A stretch of 20,492 bases of DNA from Candidatus Thorarchaeota archaeon (lineage in GTDB: Archaea > Asgardarchaeota > Thorarchaeia > Thorarchaeales > Thorarchaeaceae). The stretch covers positions 1 to 20,492 of the forward strand of contig DXJI01000036.1 in assembly GCA_019057595.1 (NCBI GenBank), in the 5' to 3' direction. Under the pieces are notes generated by a model that saw only the letters and a program-made list of their open reading frames with translations, was not told the DNA's origin and did not search any database. Each line of letters begins with the position of its first letter. Position 1 is the stretch's first letter. The position numbers and the translations under genes were made by a program. This document shows, in pieces, positions 4,000 through 13,861 of this stretch.

Positions 4000-4361
4000 G
4001 AGTGGCTCTGGAGCAGAAGCGCGACTGACGGTACTCACTCCTCGGAGTGAGAGCTGAGGAAACTCCCGACTCTATGTCGATGCCGGTCCTAGATTACTAG
4101 GGAGGTGAGAACCTCGCTCTGGGAACAGAAACGATATCCCCGAATTGGATACGACAATGATACAGAAGTTCAATCTGTTGAGGATCAGTTCGGCTTGATT
4201 GAAACGGCCCATCACCGGTTGAGCAATTCCAAGAGTACACCGTTGACGTGTCGACCCGAGGTGTAGGGTAGGAAGCTTAGTTTGATGTCGCAAGACTTCA
4301 GATCGGCAACAATCTGGAGTGGAACAAAATTGGGGTTACTCTCTGGACCAGAGCCGCCCCA
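4000..4361 (+). ncRNA. rnpB: RNase P RNA
   Basis: Catalytic RNA that removes 5' leaders from tRNA precursors. GGCTCTGG (4004-4011) pairs perfectly with CCAGAGCC (4348-4355) to make helix P1, closing the whole molecule. The hallmark GAGGAAACTCCC begins at 4056; AAC-T-CCC (4061-4067) pairs with GGGGTT (4332-4337) to form P4 with the universal bulged U at 4064. A strong hairpin, CTCACTC with GAGTGAG, precedes it as P3, and the conserved ACAGAAA lies near 4124. The layout fits archaeal type A RNA. Ends are estimated from P1 and the promoter. It fills the gap between cbf5 and the next gene. Confidence 0.92.
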
Positions 4362-7063: not shown

Positions 7064-7462
7064 TTAGACTCTTCGCCCGCGACGACCACCGCGCTTTCTA
7101 GTACCGTCGTGTGGCATCGGGGTGACTTCGTCAATTATGCCGATTCTGAGTCCGGCCCTGCTGAGTGCACGAATTGCAGCTTGTGCCCCAGGACCGGGAG
7201 TCTTTGGTCCATGACCACCAGGTGCTCGAACTCGTATGTGAATGCCGTAGATGCCCTTGTCCTTTGCCTCTCGAGCAGCTTGGAATGCGGCCTGCATTGC
7301 AGCGTGTGGTGATGACTCGTTCCTGTCAGCTTTGACCATCATTCCACCAGAATATCGAGCAAGAGTTTCGGCACCAGTGATGTCAGTAATCATAATGATT
7401 GTGTCATTGTAAGATGCGAAGATATGGGCAATTCCCCATTTGTCACGGTCGTCCTTACTCAT
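7064..7462 (-). CDS. rps11: Small-subunit ribosomal protein uS11
   Basis: A 132-residue component of the 30S platform contacting the E-site mRNA and 16S rRNA. It shows [18 protein letters not shown] near the start, the A-AA-x-A-x-x-A-KDKGI helix, [19 protein letters not shown], and the basic C-terminus [14 protein letters not shown]. The open frame extends upstream to 7495, but ATG 7462 is chosen because GAGGAG lies just before it and the usual uS11 length results. It overlaps the end of rps4 by eight bases, so the two are coupled. In most archaea rpoD comes next; here the adjacent gene is tiaS, on the other strand. Confidence 0.95.
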
Positions 7463-8105
7463 GTTTCTCCTCTCCTGCAGCTGGAAGGTCAGCATTTGTC
7501 ACAGGTTCTTTGCCCTCTGGTCTCCGTGGGCGCTCGCCATCATCTGCACCATCAAAGGGTTCAGCAGTAGCCCTTGTTGCGGCATCGGAAGCAGCAATTC
7601 GTGCAGGATGTGACATGTCATTCAGAGGTGACTTGGTAGTGTATTGGAGTCGTTCCTCTTCCGCCACAGTGATCAGTCTCTGAGGTGTATTGACCCGAGC
7701 TCCATCCAGAGCAACATGTCCATGGGCCACTAGCTGTCGAGCATGATGCATCGAACTGGCTAGACCCTTCCTAAACACTATTGTCTGAAGGCGACGTTCA
7801 AGCATGTCCTCTAATGTAAGGTCAAGAACATGATCCAGAGTTGGTTCTGCTCTGAGAATACCAACCCGAGCCAGTTTAGTGACTAACTCACGTTCATTCT
7901 GCTCTCGTTCAGATACTGAAAGTGCCAGCATCTGACGGGCATTACGTCGATAATGTGAGAGATCAGTCTTGTGTTTCCATAACTCTCTCTTGTTTCTCAG
8001 TCCATATGAACCGATGAGTTGGAGTTCCTGTTCGAACCTGTCACTGTCGAAGGGTTTCTTCGGGGCTACGTATTTTTTCTTCTGTTTGCGCGGATCACCC
8101 ATCAT
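7455..8105 (-). CDS. rps4: Small-subunit ribosomal protein uS4 with C-terminal extension
   Basis: A primary 16S rRNA-binding protein that nucleates 30S assembly. The 216-residue protein has the archaeal uS4 N-terminal region ([18 protein letters not shown]), a helical middle with [10 protein letters not shown], and the S4 RNA-binding domain at about 104-146 with [20 protein letters not shown]. From about residue 165 it continues in a roughly 50-residue tail rich in Ala, Glu, Asp and Pro, longer than I would expect for archaeal uS4. The start is one of two adjacent ATG codons (8105, 8102), with GAGGG close upstream. It follows rps13 after 12 bases. Confidence 0.95.
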
Positions 8106-8117
8106 TCATTCCCTCGA

Positions 8118-8567
8118 CTATAATTTCTTCCTTGAAACACCAACTGCCATTCCACCGCGCCCAGTTGTTCGAGTATGCTGACCTCTGACTCGGAGACCGA
8201 GTGAGTGTCTGACACCTCTCCAGGACTTGATTCTTCGAAGCCTGTCAATATCGTTCCTGTGAGCAAATTCTAGGTCGGATCCAGTCAAATGGAGCATCCT
8301 TCCACTCATTCTGTCTCTTGGACGATTGACATACCAGTCAGGAAAATTAGACGAAACAGGATCCTTGACGATCTTCTCGATCTTCTTTATCTCTGTATCA
8401 GTCAAGTAACCGAGTCTCTTGGATGAATCAATCTCGGTCCTAGTGATGATGGCACGGGACAGTCTAAGACCCACACCCTTTATTCGTGTGAGTCCTTGGA
8501 GTAGGTTCTCTTGCCCGTCTATGTCACTTCCACTGATACGGACAATATACTTGTAATCTTCTGACAT
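8118..8567 (-). CDS. rps13: Small-subunit ribosomal protein uS13
   Basis: A 149-residue protein of the 30S head that bridges to the large subunit. It has the uS13 helix-hairpin-helix LTRIKGVGLRLSRAI near residues 25-39, DWYVNRPRD in the middle, and the conserved C-terminal RGVRHSLGLRVRGQHTRTTGR. The frame is open up to 8639, but ATG 8567 is preceded by GAGG at nine bases and gives the family's normal N-terminus, SEDYKYIVRI. It leads the rps13-rps4-rps11 operon, and a TATA-like box lies about 50 bases upstream. Confidence 0.95.
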   Translation of the reverse strand: MSEDYKYIVRISGSDIDGQENLLQGLTRIKGVGLRLSRAIITRTEIDSSKRLGYLTDTEIKKIEKIVKDPVSSNFPDWYVNRPRDRMSGRMLHLTGSDLEFAHRNDIDRLRRIKSWRGVRHSLGLRVRGQHTRTTGRGGMAVGVSRKKL

Positions 8568-8618
8568 GATGTATAACCTCATCTGACTGGTCTGAGGCTT
8601 GTTCGCGTCTTGAAAATA

Positions 8619-8627
8619 CCTTATAAT
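8619..8627 (-). promoter_or_regulatory. TATA box of the rps13 operon
   Basis: Read on the minus strand this is ATTATAAGG, one of the best TATA matches in the window. With usual archaeal spacing transcription would start near 8596, leaving a leader of about 30 bases before ATG 8567. The same intergenic region (8568-8728) must also serve the divergent gene at 8729. Confidence 0.6.
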
Positions 8628-8728
8628 AGTTGCCATCAAGCCGCGGATTCTGAAGCGTCTTACGTGCTCTGGGGGAGTTCTTATGGGCAGAATAGATATA
8701 CGAGAGGAGAGAGTATTCTTCTCATGGG

Positions 8729-9136
8729 GTGGATGTTGTGAGTGTCAAATCACCAATTGAACCAGAAGTGACACCTTCAATACTTGCGAATATACCTGAC
8801 ACATTACGAACAGTTCTCAGTGATTCGTTTCAAAGTGACACAAGGAACAGAAAGTCAGTTCTAATCTCTAGTAACAGTCTAGCAAATAGATTCATACTTA
8901 ACCGATGGGGGATCCGACCTTCACAGAGGAGGAGATACAAGAATCTCTATTCATCAGTACGGAAAAATTGTAGAGATGTTTTCCAAAATTATCTCTCTCG
9001 TGGGAGAGTAGACTGGGATTCAGGAGTAGAAAATTTGGTCTTTGGTGTTTTCAAATTTGATGATATCAGGGGAAATCTGATTCTTGGATTCGTTGAAATG
9101 ACCCCCGAGTCAGAATGGACCTTAAGTAAGAGATAG
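8729..9136 (+). CDS. Hypothetical protein
   Basis: I do not recognise this 135-residue protein. A Ser/Pro-rich N-terminus is followed by a helical middle with a basic cluster (RPSQRRRYKNLYSSVRKN at about 63-80), then alternating hydrophobic strands (LVFGVFKF, LILGFVEM) near the C-terminus. No signal peptide, membrane segment or Cys/His cluster is seen. The start is GTG 8729; a purine-rich GAGAGGAGAG at 8702-8711 is rather far upstream, and GTG 8738 is an alternative. It is transcribed away from rps13 and runs convergently into the small GTPase gene, with three bases between their stops. Confidence 0.55.
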   Translation: MDVVSVKSPIEPEVTPSILANIPDTLRTVLSDSFQSDTRNRKSVLISSNSLANRFILNRWGIRPSQRRRYKNLYSSVRKNCRDVFQNYLSRGRVDWDSGVENLVFGVFKFDDIRGNLILGFVEMTPESEWTLSKR

Positions 9137-9139
9137 TGA

Positions 9140-10027
9140 CTATGCCTCTTCTTCAATGCAAAGTAGTTGTTCCACCGGTAGGTCTGGAACCTCTAGTTCG
9201 AAAAACTCTGAAAGGACATCCACTAAGATCCGAAGAAGATCTTCCCGGTAGGCCAGATCAATAGCCACCATAGAATAAGATGGGGACCCCATGACCTTAC
9301 TGATTGCTGAGGGGTCAAGAGAGTTGGGAGTGTCCTGTTTGTTTGCAAAGATTATGATTGGCATCTCAGGATATTCAGAGAGTATTTCTGTGAAAATCGA
9401 TTTAGAGGACACAATATTCTTGAGTGTTGAATCAGTAATCAAGAAGATCATGTCTGTAAATGAGAAGTCCCAAAGATTTCTAGCGGCTTCCCGTCCTGCA
9501 AAATCGAAAATTACTATCTCGTAGTTTGCAAATTTGATGTCTTCAATTACCTCACAGTTCAATGCGATTGTGGGGACATGAGTTTCTGGAGGAGGTTTTC
9601 CCATCAATAGATGAAGGAGTGATGTTTTTCCAACTCCCATGTTTCCAACAAGGGCGATTACAAAACGGGATTGGATGAAACGAGCGATGATCTGCTCATA
9701 GTTCGTCTTGACGTATTTTGCAGTATTCTTGTCTAAGACCAGTCGGAGTGAACTTGCAGCACGATTGATTTTGTTAATGATATCCTCTTCGGATTCATCA
9801 TGATCTGTGACAAAGATGATAATCCCTTTACCACATTCTCGACTTACGAATTTGTACTCTTCGAGTACAACTGGTTTGTACTTCAAACGCTCAGATTTCT
9901 GGATAAGAGCTTCAAGCTGTGAGAGATACTGGTTGATGATTTTCCTTGGAATTGGGTCCGCCCAATATTCAGATGATGCAATCTTGCGTCTAGTCTGAGC
10001 ATTCAGCAAGATTGTGCTATAGATCAT
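9140..10027 (-). CDS. Small GTPase (Ras/Arf-like) with N-terminal longin/roadblock-like region
   Basis: A 295-residue protein. The C-terminal ~170 residues form a full small GTPase: G1 GNMGVGKTS at 128-136, switch I Thr153 (VPTIAL), G3 DFAGRE at 175-180, G4 NKQD at 229-232 and a degenerate G5 near 255-258 (AIDL). At the place of Ras Gln61 there is Arg179, so intrinsic hydrolysis may be altered. The first ~115 residues show alternating strands and helices (GIIIFVTDHDESEEDIINKI) that could be a longin- or roadblock-like fold; this part is inference. No C-terminal lipidation box is seen. Such GTPases are abundant in Asgard archaea, where they may serve membrane or signalling roles. ATG 10027 has GAGGAG about ten bases upstream. 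Confidence 0.85.
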   Translation of the reverse strand: MIYSTILLNAQTRRKIASSEYWADPIPRKIINQYLSQLEALIQKSERLKYKPVVLEEYKFVSRECGKGIIIFVTDHDESEEDIINKINRAASSLRLVLDKNTAKYVKTNYEQIIARFIQSRFVIALVGNMGVGKTSLLHLLMGKPPPETHVPTIALNCEVIEDIKFANYEIVIFDFAGREAARNLWDFSFTDMIFLITDSTLKNIVSSKSIFTEILSEYPEMPIIIFANKQDTPNSLDPSAISKVMGSPSYSMVAIDLAYREDLLRILVDVLSEFFELEVPDLPVEQLLCIEEEA

Positions 10028-10164: not shown

Positions 10165-10285
10165 GCCGAGGTAGCCAAGCCCGGTTCACGGCGATAGCCT
10201 GGAATCGACAGTTGTCTTAACGACCTTCGTTCAGACAGCTATTCTCCAATAGGAGGCATGAGTTCGAATCTCATCCTCGGCGCCA
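10165..10285 (+). tRNA. tRNA-Ser(GGA) with intron
   Basis: Full type II cloverleaf: acceptor GCCGAGG (10165-10171) with CCTCGGC (10275-10281), D stem GCC/GGC, anticodon stem ATAGC (10194-10198) with GCTAT (10238-10242), a variable arm with CTCC/GGAG, and T arm ATGAG-TTCGAAT-CTCAT. The spliced anticodon loop is CTGGAAA, giving anticodon GGA at 10201-10203, which reads UCC and UCU. Discriminator G10282 and the long variable arm fit serine. CCA is encoded (10283-10285). It stands alone between the GTPase and asparaginase genes in a gap of 311 bases, the rest of which (10028-10164, 10286-10338) shows no clear feature. Confidence 0.95.
10205..10236 (+). other. tRNA-Ser intron at position 37/38
   Basis: A 32-base intron lies between A37 (10204) and A38 (10237). 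A bulge-helix-bulge can be drawn: exon CTGG pairs with intron TCAG, the 5' cut falls in bulge AAT and the 3' cut in bulge ACA. CGA pairs with TCG inside, and the intron core forms GTTGT-CTTA-ACGAC as a hairpin. This is the canonical substrate of archaeal splicing endonuclease. Exact cut sites are inferred from the fold. Confidence 0.85.
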
Positions 10286-10338: not shown

Positions 10339-11370
10339 CTACTTGTCAGAAGCACTCTCGATATAGGACATCTCACCAATATAGCTGATTCCCATCATCT
10401 CTTTGACTCGATCGGATTCTTTGGTGTGACCCAAGACCCAAGCTAGCTTTACCAGTGCAGCTTCAGATGTCATGTCGTGGGCACTCATTGCTCCGACCTC
10501 CATAGCCGCTCTTCCAACCTCATAGATCGACAGGTCAGCCTGACCAAAGGCACACTGTGAACTGACAACGACAAAACAGCCCTGGTCTATTGCCTGAAGA
10601 ATACCTCCAGTCAAGGCATTTTCATTTGTGGGAATGTTGCCGGATCCATAGCCCTCTACGATTATTCCATGAAAGCCCATGTCCACAATTCGAGCAAGAG
10701 TCTGAGGTGGCATTCCTGGAAACACCTTGAGAAGAAACACCCTATCATCGAGTCGTGTATCAAACCGCGGAATGCACGTATGATCACGTTTCTTCCGACC
10801 CTCGTAAAGTACTATGTCACGTGCTAAGAGACCTATTGGTGAGGGGTCCATCGAGTCGAATGCATCATATGAGTTGGCCCGCACCTTCTTTGCTCTGGTT
10901 GCTCGATGGACCTCGCCATTGAACACAATGCAGGTCTCACCGAGGTCCCCAAACGCAGCCACCCGAATTGCATCGAGCAGATTTCTTGGACCATCGCTCC
11001 ATGGCACTGTTGCGGGAATCTGAGAACCAGTGAACACAATCGGCTTACCGAAGTCTTGAACCATAAAACTCACGGCTGCAGCAGAATAGGTCATGGTGTC
11101 AGTACCATGAGTGACAACAATACCCGTGAGATCCTGAATCTCCTCACTCACCTCTTTGATAGTGCTTGCTAAGGTCTGCCAGTGGTGCGGTTGTGCATTA
11201 GCAGAGTCCAGTTGATACAACTCTCTCTGGATGACCTCAATATTGCCCATTCCCTTAGGGAGGCGTTCAATAAGCTCCTCGACAGACAGACCTGGACGAA
11301 GTGCTCTGGTTTCAGAGTCATAGACACTAGAGATAGTTCCTCCAGTTGTGATGAGGCAGACTTTGACCAT
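10339..11370 (-). CDS. ansA: Type I L-asparaginase
   Basis: Predicted to hydrolyse L-asparagine to aspartate and ammonia in the cytoplasm. The 343-residue protein has both threonine active-site motifs, TTGGTIS at 8-14 (nucleophile Thr12) and THGTDTM at 87-93, and a catalytic Lys at 161/162 (RAKKVRANSYDAF). The C-terminal domain carries EGYGSGNIP, as in archaeal asparaginases. GatD of the archaeal glutamyl-tRNA amidotransferase shares this core but adds an N-terminal domain of roughly 80 residues, absent here, and no gatE is nearby, so asparaginase is preferred. A TATA-like GATAAACC may lie about 50 bases upstream. It follows tRNase Z after 73 bases. Confidence 0.88.
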   Translation of the reverse strand: MVKVCLITTGGTISSVYDSETRALRPGLSVEELIERLPKGMGNIEVIQRELYQLDSANAQPHHWQTLASTIKEVSEEIQDLTGIVVTHGTDTMTYSAAAVSFMVQDFGKPIVFTGSQIPATVPWSDGPRNLLDAIRVAAFGDLGETCIVFNGEVHRATRAKKVRANSYDAFDSMDPSPIGLLARDIVLYEGRKKRDHTCIPRFDTRLDDRVFLLKVFPGMPPQTLARIVDMGFHGIIVEGYGSGNIPTNENALTGGILQAIDQGCFVVVSSQCAFGQADLSIYEVGRAAMEVGAMSAHDMTSEAALVKLAWVLGHTKESDRVKEMMGISYIGEMSYIESASDK

Positions 11371-12448: not shown

Positions 12449-13861
12449 TCATGCCAGGTCTAGAGGGATGTTTTTCGGTGACGCCTCCCTGCGAACCACA
12501 CTGTATGTAAAAGCATCAAAGAACTTCGATATGTCCCATTTCCATTGGTCCTTTCTTCGGTCGTACATTGAGGAGACCTTTGAAGATCCTCCCACTCCCG
12601 CTGCAACAACATTAGCTGAATAGTCATGTATCTTGGACGTTTCATCATCTAGCACTTCAATGAGATTCTGGCCAGACCCAGCAGGCAGGGCCGAAACAAG
12701 CAAGACCTTCTTCTCGGAGGGATCCTCCAGGTTCTGTATCCGTGAGTGATATGTGAGAGGCAGGTAGTCCCATGCTGGGATAATATCTCCTGAACATTCG
12801 GGACTTAGGAGGCAGATGACCCGATCGCTCAGGGTAGGAATATTGACACGGGCTCTTGGCAACACAATTCCCTTCCGCAGAAGCTGAGTTCTTTTCCTAA
12901 ATGCCGTGGAGGATGACAGTTTGGTTGCCTTAACTATGTCCGCCGCCGTCCCTCCATAATTATCGACAAGTGCGTCAATGATCTTGACATCGGCATAGGT
13001 GAATCCATGTGGATTAGGTGGAACTGTAGAAGCCACATCTGCAAGAACAAGTGGATTGCCTCCTTTCCTCAGCATAAGTCGGAAATGGAGCAAGTCAAGT
13101 TTCCAACCTCTGTTTGGGTTGAAATAGCGACCATTCAGTTGTGGCCTTCCGGCAGAGAGACCCCAGACAGAAACGCTTCCAGTGCTGGTTCTGAAGCTCT
13201 TTATGGTATCGAGAAATTCCTTACGTTTCTCATATGGTATCGTGGCGACGACTAATACTAAGGGAGAATAACCATCGATCATCATTGTCTTCTGAACGTA
13301 GGGACCAGACAAGACAAGAGTTGGAGACTCAAACATAATCAGGACCCTCTCTAGTCCTAGTTTGTGGGTGTTCAACATACCCCCAGTCTTCAGGACCTCT
13401 GAGTCATTCAGTCGTTTGGATGCACGACGAGTCTGTCCATAAGAGAGATTTGCATATTCGGCAATGACGTTTAGTGGTTTGCCTGGATTTTTGATTGCGG
13501 CCTTCAGATAGGGTAACTCGGTCCTTGAGAGGACAGAGATATTCTCTTCCCACAAGTCAACAATCAGGCTCATGATATCCCTCTGACTGATAATCGTGAT
13601 ATCACCAAGCTTGACAACTTCCTCTAAACGACGGGTAAGTAAGAAATAGAGACTTCCTCGATAAGACAGGACCATCTTTCTAAGTAGTTTGAAGTCCGCA
13701 TCCTCTGTGAAGACTACTAGTTGACCTCCCTCTTCAAATGTCTTGACAAAACGTAAGACTGCCATTGCACTCGGCGATAGTTTTTCCCAAAAGTTTGGAG
13801 TGTCATCATCAGGCATTATTGTGTCGTCCTGACCATCCTTTGCAAGTTCTGGCTCAGTCAT
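12449..13861 (-). CDS. Large protein with duplicated winged-helix modules, putative regulator
   Basis: I do not recognise a named family for this 470-residue protein. After an acidic tail (1-25) and an N-terminal alpha/beta region (30-105), a winged helix-turn-helix lies at about 112-165 (PLNVIAEYANLSYGQTRRASKRL). An alpha/beta segment like an Lrp/AsnC ligand domain follows at 170-237. The same plan recurs: a second winged helix at about 288-345 (TAADIVKATKLSSSTAFRKRTQLL) and another alpha/beta segment at 345-425. It looks like an internally duplicated transcription factor. ATG 13861 has GGGGGT upstream. It lies between a TrmB regulator gene and tRNase Z, all on the minus strand. Confidence 0.7.
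   Translation of the reverse strand: MTEPELAKDGQDDTIMPDDDTPNFWEKLSPSAMAVLRFVKTFEEGGQLVVFTEDADFKLLRKMVLSYRGSLYFLLTRRLEEVVKLGDITIISQRDIMSLIVDLWEENISVLSRTELPYLKAAIKNPGKPLNVIAEYANLSYGQTRRASKRLNDSEVLKTGGMLNTHKLGLERVLIMFESPTLVLSGPYVQKTMMIDGYSPLVLVVATIPYEKRKEFLDTIKSFRTSTGSVSVWGLSAGRPQLNGRYFNPNRGWKLDLLHFRLMLRKGGNPLVLADVASTVPPNPHGFTYADVKIIDALVDNYGGTAADIVKATKLSSSTAFRKRTQLLRKGIVLPRARVNIPTLSDRVICLLSPECSGDIIPAWDYLPLTYHSRIQNLEDPSEKKVLLVSALPAGSGQNLIEVLDDETSKIHDYSANVVAAGVGGSSKVSSMYDRRKDQWKWDISKFFDAFTYSVVRREASPKNIPLDLA

Follow-up and report, generated by a model that had tools for sequence, protein, structure and literature searches.

Small GTPases of Asgard archaea have been used to argue for the membrane abilities of the ancestor of eukaryotes. 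The stretch of DNA analysed here (the window; 20,492 nucleotides of Candidatus Thorarchaeota contig DXJI01000036.1) encodes such a protein with arginine at the position of Ras Gln61, and it raises the question of what kind of switch is left when the catalytic glutamine is gone. The protein, from Thorarchaeota, belongs to the longin-Arf/Rag-type GTPases of Asgard archaea and is encoded on the minus strand by an open reading frame with an ATG start, opposite a plus strand with many stops. Pfam assigns Arf as the best match (residues 121-248, 4.7e-16), with weaker G-domain matches to Roc (1e-10), Ras, MMR_HSR1 and SRPRB (4.9e-6, just above the cut-off). The gene and its parts are as follows.

9140..10027, minus strand: gene for the 295-aa longin-GTPase, the divergent member of a tandem pair of Thorarchaeota (ORF analysis, Pfam Arf, homologues)
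9674..10027, minus strand: predicted N-terminal longin domain, residues 1-118 (AlphaFold2 topology, profile matches, Pfam in some relatives)
9194..9673, minus strand: Arf/Rag-type G domain, residues 119-278 (Pfam and fold comparison)
9623..9646, minus strand: G1 or P-loop GNMGVGKT, residues 128-135 (from sequence; Gly133 and Lys134 in 125 of 125 rows)
9638..9640, minus strand: Met130 at the Ras Gly12 position (read off the P-loop)
9557..9574, minus strand: G2 or switch I PTIALN with Thr153 (Thr153 in 125 of 125 rows)
9488..9505, minus strand: G3 and start of switch II, DFAGRE, residues 175-180 (from sequence)
9491..9493, minus strand: CGG, the codon of Arg179, where Ras has its catalytic Gln61 (direct DNA reading)
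9332..9343, minus strand: G4 NKQD, residues 229-232 (from sequence)

The original prediction, made from the letters alone, had read G3 as DFAGRE with Arg179 in place of Gln61 and all nucleotide-binding motifs as intact. Both statements hold: the CGG codon is there, and G1, G2, the DxxG of G3 and the NKxD of G4 are all present, with an atypical G5 (VAIDL, Ala255). The catalytic Gln that should follow DxxG is absent from the window protein. A homologue search with the protein gave 193 matches, 120 of which are listed; the listed ones with a named organism come from Candidatus Thorarchaeota, in keeping with the predicted Asgard-type small GTPase. At least 281 aa are present in 114 of the 120, and a scan of genome contigs with the single window protein as query gave two loci. 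Between the window protein and its orthologue in genome G198, dN is 0.16 and dS about 2.3 (near saturation), which indicates that the protein is maintained.

Residue 179 varies among the homologues. The 120 listed matches carry Q in 64, R in 37, E in 5, D in 4, I and H in 3 each, and L and K in 2 each. The number of homologues (193) and the recurrence of Arg argue against chance or a sequencing error. A tree of 164 rows, for which columns 172-190 were left out, places the window protein in a starred 39-row clade inside a 68-row clade. Arg occupies the site in 36 of the 38 rows of the window's Arg clade (one Leu, one Lys); in the remainder of the enclosing clade, 30 rows, the residues are Q (18), H (4), I (3), R (2), E (2) and K (1). 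Arg recurs outside the window's clade in P0064 and in the truncated P0114, and in 10 rows that form a branch of their own the residue is Asp or Glu. Within the Arg clade the site is conserved no better than the median column (0.947 for both). The original prediction had held that Gln in close homologues would make Arg179 a one-off variant. With Arg in 36 of 38 clade rows and mostly Gln outside, it is a trait of a clade, neither a one-off nor a property of the whole family.

We infer that Gln is the ancestral state, given its frequency in two wider samples. A survey of four related genomes covered 95 of 100 Arf-family matches (one in G198, three in G206 and one in G202 were left out), and in the profile alignment 91 of the 95 have Gln. 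Of the remaining four, two are orthologues of the window gene, with Arg in G198 and His in G206. The other two belong to a second family, which reads GTPGL, with Leu at the Gln position, and occurs in G198 and G202 (L140, L100). Gln is also found in 25 of 25 longin-GTPase family relatives from 17 other genomes of the phylum, a selection from a longer match list rather than an exhaustive set; one stretch (L160) that did not lie at a match was left out. Among the genomes sampled, loss of Gln in the longin-GTPase family thus appears confined to this Thorarchaeota branch. A tree of 125 divergent rows (64 with Gln, 61 Gln-less), built without switch II, requires a minimum of 7 changes when rows are scored as Gln or non-Gln and of 13 when the exact residue is scored.

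Against this variability, the alignment demonstrates retention of the residues expected to bind guanine nucleotide, Mg2+ and the gamma-phosphate. All 61 Gln-less rows keep Gly128, Gly131, Gly133, Lys134, Thr/Ser135, Pro152, Thr153 and Gly178; Asp175 is kept in 60 (the exception is D175E), and NKxD in all 59 rows that have letters at G4. Binding residues that are kept while the catalytic Gln is let go are our main evidence that the switch would no longer depend on Gln. We also considered a link between loss of Gln179 and a hydrophobic residue 130. Met, Ile or Leu is found there in 43 of 61 Gln-less rows as against 1 of 64 Gln rows, of which 59 have Ser; in the Arg clade 38 of 38 rows have one of the three. 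The count is strong, but it reflects only three changes on the tree, and a test on independent pairs had too few pairs to show a link, so the candidate was set aside.

The region upstream of the G domain was predicted to be a separate alpha/beta region of about 115 residues, and the AlphaFold2 model (73 homologues; pLDDT 86, pTM 0.82) agrees, with a separate alpha/beta domain at residues 1-118. Its elements are E2-9, E15-20, H28-44, E53-55, E58-64, E68-74, H80-100 and H103-118, with an extra short helix at 46-50. The longin fold has the order beta-beta-alpha-beta-beta-beta-alpha-alpha, which the model matches over these residues. The last longin helix (103-118) is predicted to run into the first G-domain strand (120-127), in the place of the Arf membrane helix. 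In the whole-model searches with Foldseek and VIA-align, G-domain matches filled the lists; that roadblock and profilin folds do not appear there is no argument against them.

Profile comparisons point the same way. The window's N-terminal domain as sole query matched no longin model. Profile A3, made from 44 N-terminal domains (20 more were located besides), matched the AP-3 mu longin over its full length at 0.0013 and a designed protein at 0.011. The wider profile A6, made from 28 of these N-terminal domains and taking in other genomes of the phylum, matched AP sigma (2.5e-4), AP-2 sigma (0.013-0.014) and AP-3 mu (0.014), followed by an uncharacterised chain (0.033), non-longin chains from 0.11 (including the designed protein at 0.11) and a VAMP7-type longin, synaptobrevin-like 1 (0.34). 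Pfam found Fuz_longin_1 in 4 of 28 relatives' N-terminal domains (best 5.6e-7) and Clat_adaptor_s in 5, together with Longin in 2, Sybindin in 2 and one weak match to SLM4. A scan of the 44 domains placed a phage holin family in 3 members, as many as each of two longin families, and settles nothing by itself. Given the holin and designed-protein matches, single weak matches should not be trusted, whereas the pattern of many longin families should. By predicted topology and profile matches together, residues 1-118 are a longin domain. Of the folds originally guessed at (longin, roadblock-like or profilin), longin therefore stands, and roadblock and profilin have little in their favour beyond the one weak SLM4 match.

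The genomic slot of the gene suggests how the variant arose. We compared the window with 16 related loci (stretches L041-L056; L057-L060 were left out). Where the slot is complete, the GTPase gene lies between an asparaginase gene and ribosomal S13-S4-S11 genes, which in the window are placed as follows.

7064..8639, minus strand: ribosomal protein genes S13, S4-domain (S4) and S11, the syntenic anchor on one side (Pfam, synteny)
8729..9136, plus strand: orphan gene, 135 aa, convergent with the GTPase gene (homologue in 11 of 16 related loci)
10339..11370, minus strand: asparaginase-type gene, which anchors the synteny at the opposite end (Pfam, synteny)

Eight of the 16 loci have a single canonical copy (DFAGQERF) in the slot. 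In four others, those of G202 and G208 among them, a divergent copy accompanies the canonical one, head to tail on the same strand at a distance of 88-136 bases. The divergent copy stands alone in G198, in G206 and in the window, and the G198 contig ends before any asparaginase gene. In G200 (L055 8092-8960) the divergent gene is broken, with a disrupted N-terminal part, for which a decayed gene or an assembly error are both possible. The G211 slot is cut by a contig end, and 1659-aa and 701-aa ORFs lie there between the divergent GTPase and the orphan gene (L056 2926-7905). The divergent copy has Gln in 3 of the 4 tandem pairs and is Gln-less as a sole copy (G198, G206 and the window slot), although the loci are few.

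This arrangement suggests that a canonical Gln gene was duplicated in tandem, that one copy diverged and that only the diverged copy was left in the slot of the window lineage. In a tree of five neighbour proteins (G205, G193, G191 and G211 with under half of the columns) the window, G198 and G206 group at 100/100, which fits a single loss of the canonical gene in their common ancestor, the event we infer. At E <= 1e-30, the matches in G198 and in G206 comprise in each case a single divergent copy, a distant relative of 285 aa and two long paralogues (569-654 aa); no canonical copy was seen among the first-look candidates scored (10 of 22 in G198 and 10 of 21 in G206). The paralogues of about 600 aa (L027, L007 and others) end in a long Glu-rich, acidic, low-complexity C-terminal tail, which offers no hint of function. 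The orphan gene gives a 12-row alignment with 27 invariant columns (SSNxLA, WxIRxSQR, RGNxILG), and Pfam and PDB searches gave it no convincing relative; one member matches DUF4770 at 0.0019. The window further contains an archaeal RNase P RNA at 4009-4350 (plus; 155.5 bits), a 118-base tRNA gene at 10165-10282 (plus) called by Rfam and not by ARAGORN, in which an intron is possible, and a 470-aa ORF at 12449-13861 (minus) with no Pfam match at 1e-5, whose homologues in related genomes (37-75% identity) lie in the same neighbourhood.

On balance, we favour reading the window protein as a slow or GTP-biased switch with its longin domain as a built-in platform. The protein would bind GTP and change shape, with Gln-based hydrolysis no longer needed, which would make it slow or GTP-biased; it may be reset by nucleotide exchange, by turnover or by a partner. 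In place of the membrane helix of Arf, the longin domain would provide a platform on which the protein dimerises or binds a regulator, a role modelled on the longin and roadblock domains that work with Rab, Rag and MglA GTPases. Longin and roadblock dimers have been described as platforms for small GTPases (PMC4917890, PMC10933270). The premise of the original prediction, that loss of Gln61 locks the GTP state, is not a safe guide here: human LRRK2 shares the DFAGR motif (1394-1398) and has detectable GTP hydrolysis (PMC2851569), so a protein locked on should not be assumed here, and slow or biased cycling is not proven either. For a Thorarchaeota Rab, intrinsic hydrolysis was reported to be similar to that of eukaryotic Rabs and perhaps GAP-dependent (PMC10933270), so loss of Gln may matter only for the GAP-driven rate. 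Residues 179-183 differ together from the canonical copy, and what changed may therefore be the target or the GAP and not the chemistry. That Gln persists in 64 of the 125 divergent rows counts against a Gln-less switch, as does the conservation of residue 179 in the Arg clade, which is no higher than the median.

The main rival takes Arg179 as a replacement and not a loss: Arg would reach the gamma-phosphate, sense GTP and pull switch II over, with modest intrinsic hydrolysis kept. We hold this doubtful, although the parallel with LRRK2 is close, since DFAGR is common to both proteins and both deviate at the Ras Gly12 position (T1343 in LRRK2, Met130 in the window). In a 2026 preprint that proposes Arg1398 of LRRK2 as a sensor of the gamma-phosphate, the modelled distance between the two is 2.7-2.9 A, and R1398H is argued to make the GTP state weaker and hydrolysis lower (PMC13345514); the hydrolysis detected was that of wild-type LRRK2. 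The concentration of Arg in the window's clade and its reappearance in P0064 and P0114 would also suit a working residue. The papers partly disagree, however, as R1398L and the Ras-like double change R1398Q/T1343G both raised hydrolysis in the 2010 work (PMC2851569); related rows with Q, H, K, E, I, L or D look more like a site that is unneeded than like one chemistry, and the window protein has no COR-like partner domain. An extended version, in which a tandem-duplicated longin-GTPase dropped Gln and one clade rebuilt the switch around a gamma-phosphate-reading Arg, convergent with human LRRK2, strikes us as rather doubtful. If it were true, the Q/R/K/H/E/D/I/L set with binding intact would be a natural series of a Ras-like switch without its catalytic Gln.

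Other readings place the answer in a partner or in the gene itself. A GAP might contribute the absent catalytic group in trans, with fast hydrolysis whenever this partner is present. Gln in trans is known for some eukaryotic GAPs and has been proposed for the Gln-less Group 1 Rup proteins (PMC4316618), and the block difference at residues 179-183 is as expected of a new partner there; but no partner gene was found, and the commonest neighbour, the orphan ORF 8729-9136, has no known fold and also lies beside Gln copies, in 4 of the 8 single-canonical loci, so we judge this unlikely. The tandem pair could instead have worked as a Rag-like heterodimer of a cycling Gln subunit and a non-cycling one. 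The window lineage would later have kept only the non-cycling subunit, whose partner would be a second copy of itself or a long Gln paralogue. The head-to-tail genes in 4 of the 16 loci fit this, as does a Rag-like operon pair in MK-D1 with a predicted GTR1/GTR2-like heterodimer (PMC10933270), yet Gln persists in the divergent copy of 3 of the 4 pairs, and we find the idea quite unlikely. That the gene is decaying and Arg is mere drift is very improbable: in the genetic code a single base change turns a Gln codon into one for Arg, Leu, Glu, Lys or His, and the G200 lineage copy is broken in its N-terminal part, but the lengths of the listed homologues, a dN far below dS and the kept nucleotide-binding residues speak against it. 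The slow or GTP-biased switch remains our preferred reading.

Compared with known systems, the architecture is not new, because longin-Arf fusions are already in print: five lokiarchaeal longins fused to Arf-like GTPases (PMC4917890), and Asgard GTPases fused to longin or roadblock domains (PMC10933270). The fusions of Lokiarchaeum and MK-D1 resemble the window protein in joining a longin domain to a GTPase that carries an Arf annotation and has a Rag-like structure. They differ at the catalytic site, where Gln is present in every relative sampled in other genomes of the phylum and the window protein has Arg, and the main text of PMC10933270 makes no mention of a lost catalytic Gln. As far as titles and opening abstracts of the open-licence literature show, the Gln-less catalytic variant is new, and no title or opening abstract found there names a Gln-less Thorarchaeota family. 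The case suggests that Asgard switch chemistry has been altered inside single lineages.

The best Foldseek match of the whole model is GerdArfR1 (8oum), which together with the Pfam assignment places the G domain near Asgard ArfR and eukaryotic Arf. Arf proteins have an N-terminal amphipathic helix that moves with the nucleotide state, whereas the window protein is predicted to have a longin domain there, and the Arf G3 motif is WDxGGQ in contrast to DFAGR. In Rag GTPases a C-terminal roadblock serves the heterodimer; the window chain ends about 17 residues past the G domain and its extra domain is N-terminal. The SRX domain of SR-alpha is longin-type and works with the Arf-type SR-beta, a combination that recalls the window protein, which has an SRPRB match in Pfam; the SR system, however, consists of two proteins with the membrane anchor on SR-beta (PMC8358228) and the window protein is one chain. 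Bacterial Group 1 Rup proteins are likewise prokaryotic small GTPases without the G3 Gln, but they belong to a different family, and longin is unmentioned in the account of them that we cite (PMC4316618).

The closest likeness at the catalytic site is to the ROC domain of LRRK2, with its DFAGR Arg at the Gln61 position and a residue other than Gly at the Ras Gly12 position. LRRK2 has LRR, COR and kinase domains, with COR following ROC, whereas the window protein has 295 aa, no further domain and Arf as its best Pfam match, Roc being weaker. Among 20 Roco proteins Arg is found in LRRK2 only and ten keep Gln (PMC13345514, preprint). We take the likeness of the two sites to be probably convergent. 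If the protein can be made, it would offer a small, naturally replicated model for the Arg-for-Gln change of LRRK2, with the Gln-bearing paralogues from the same genomic slot as controls.
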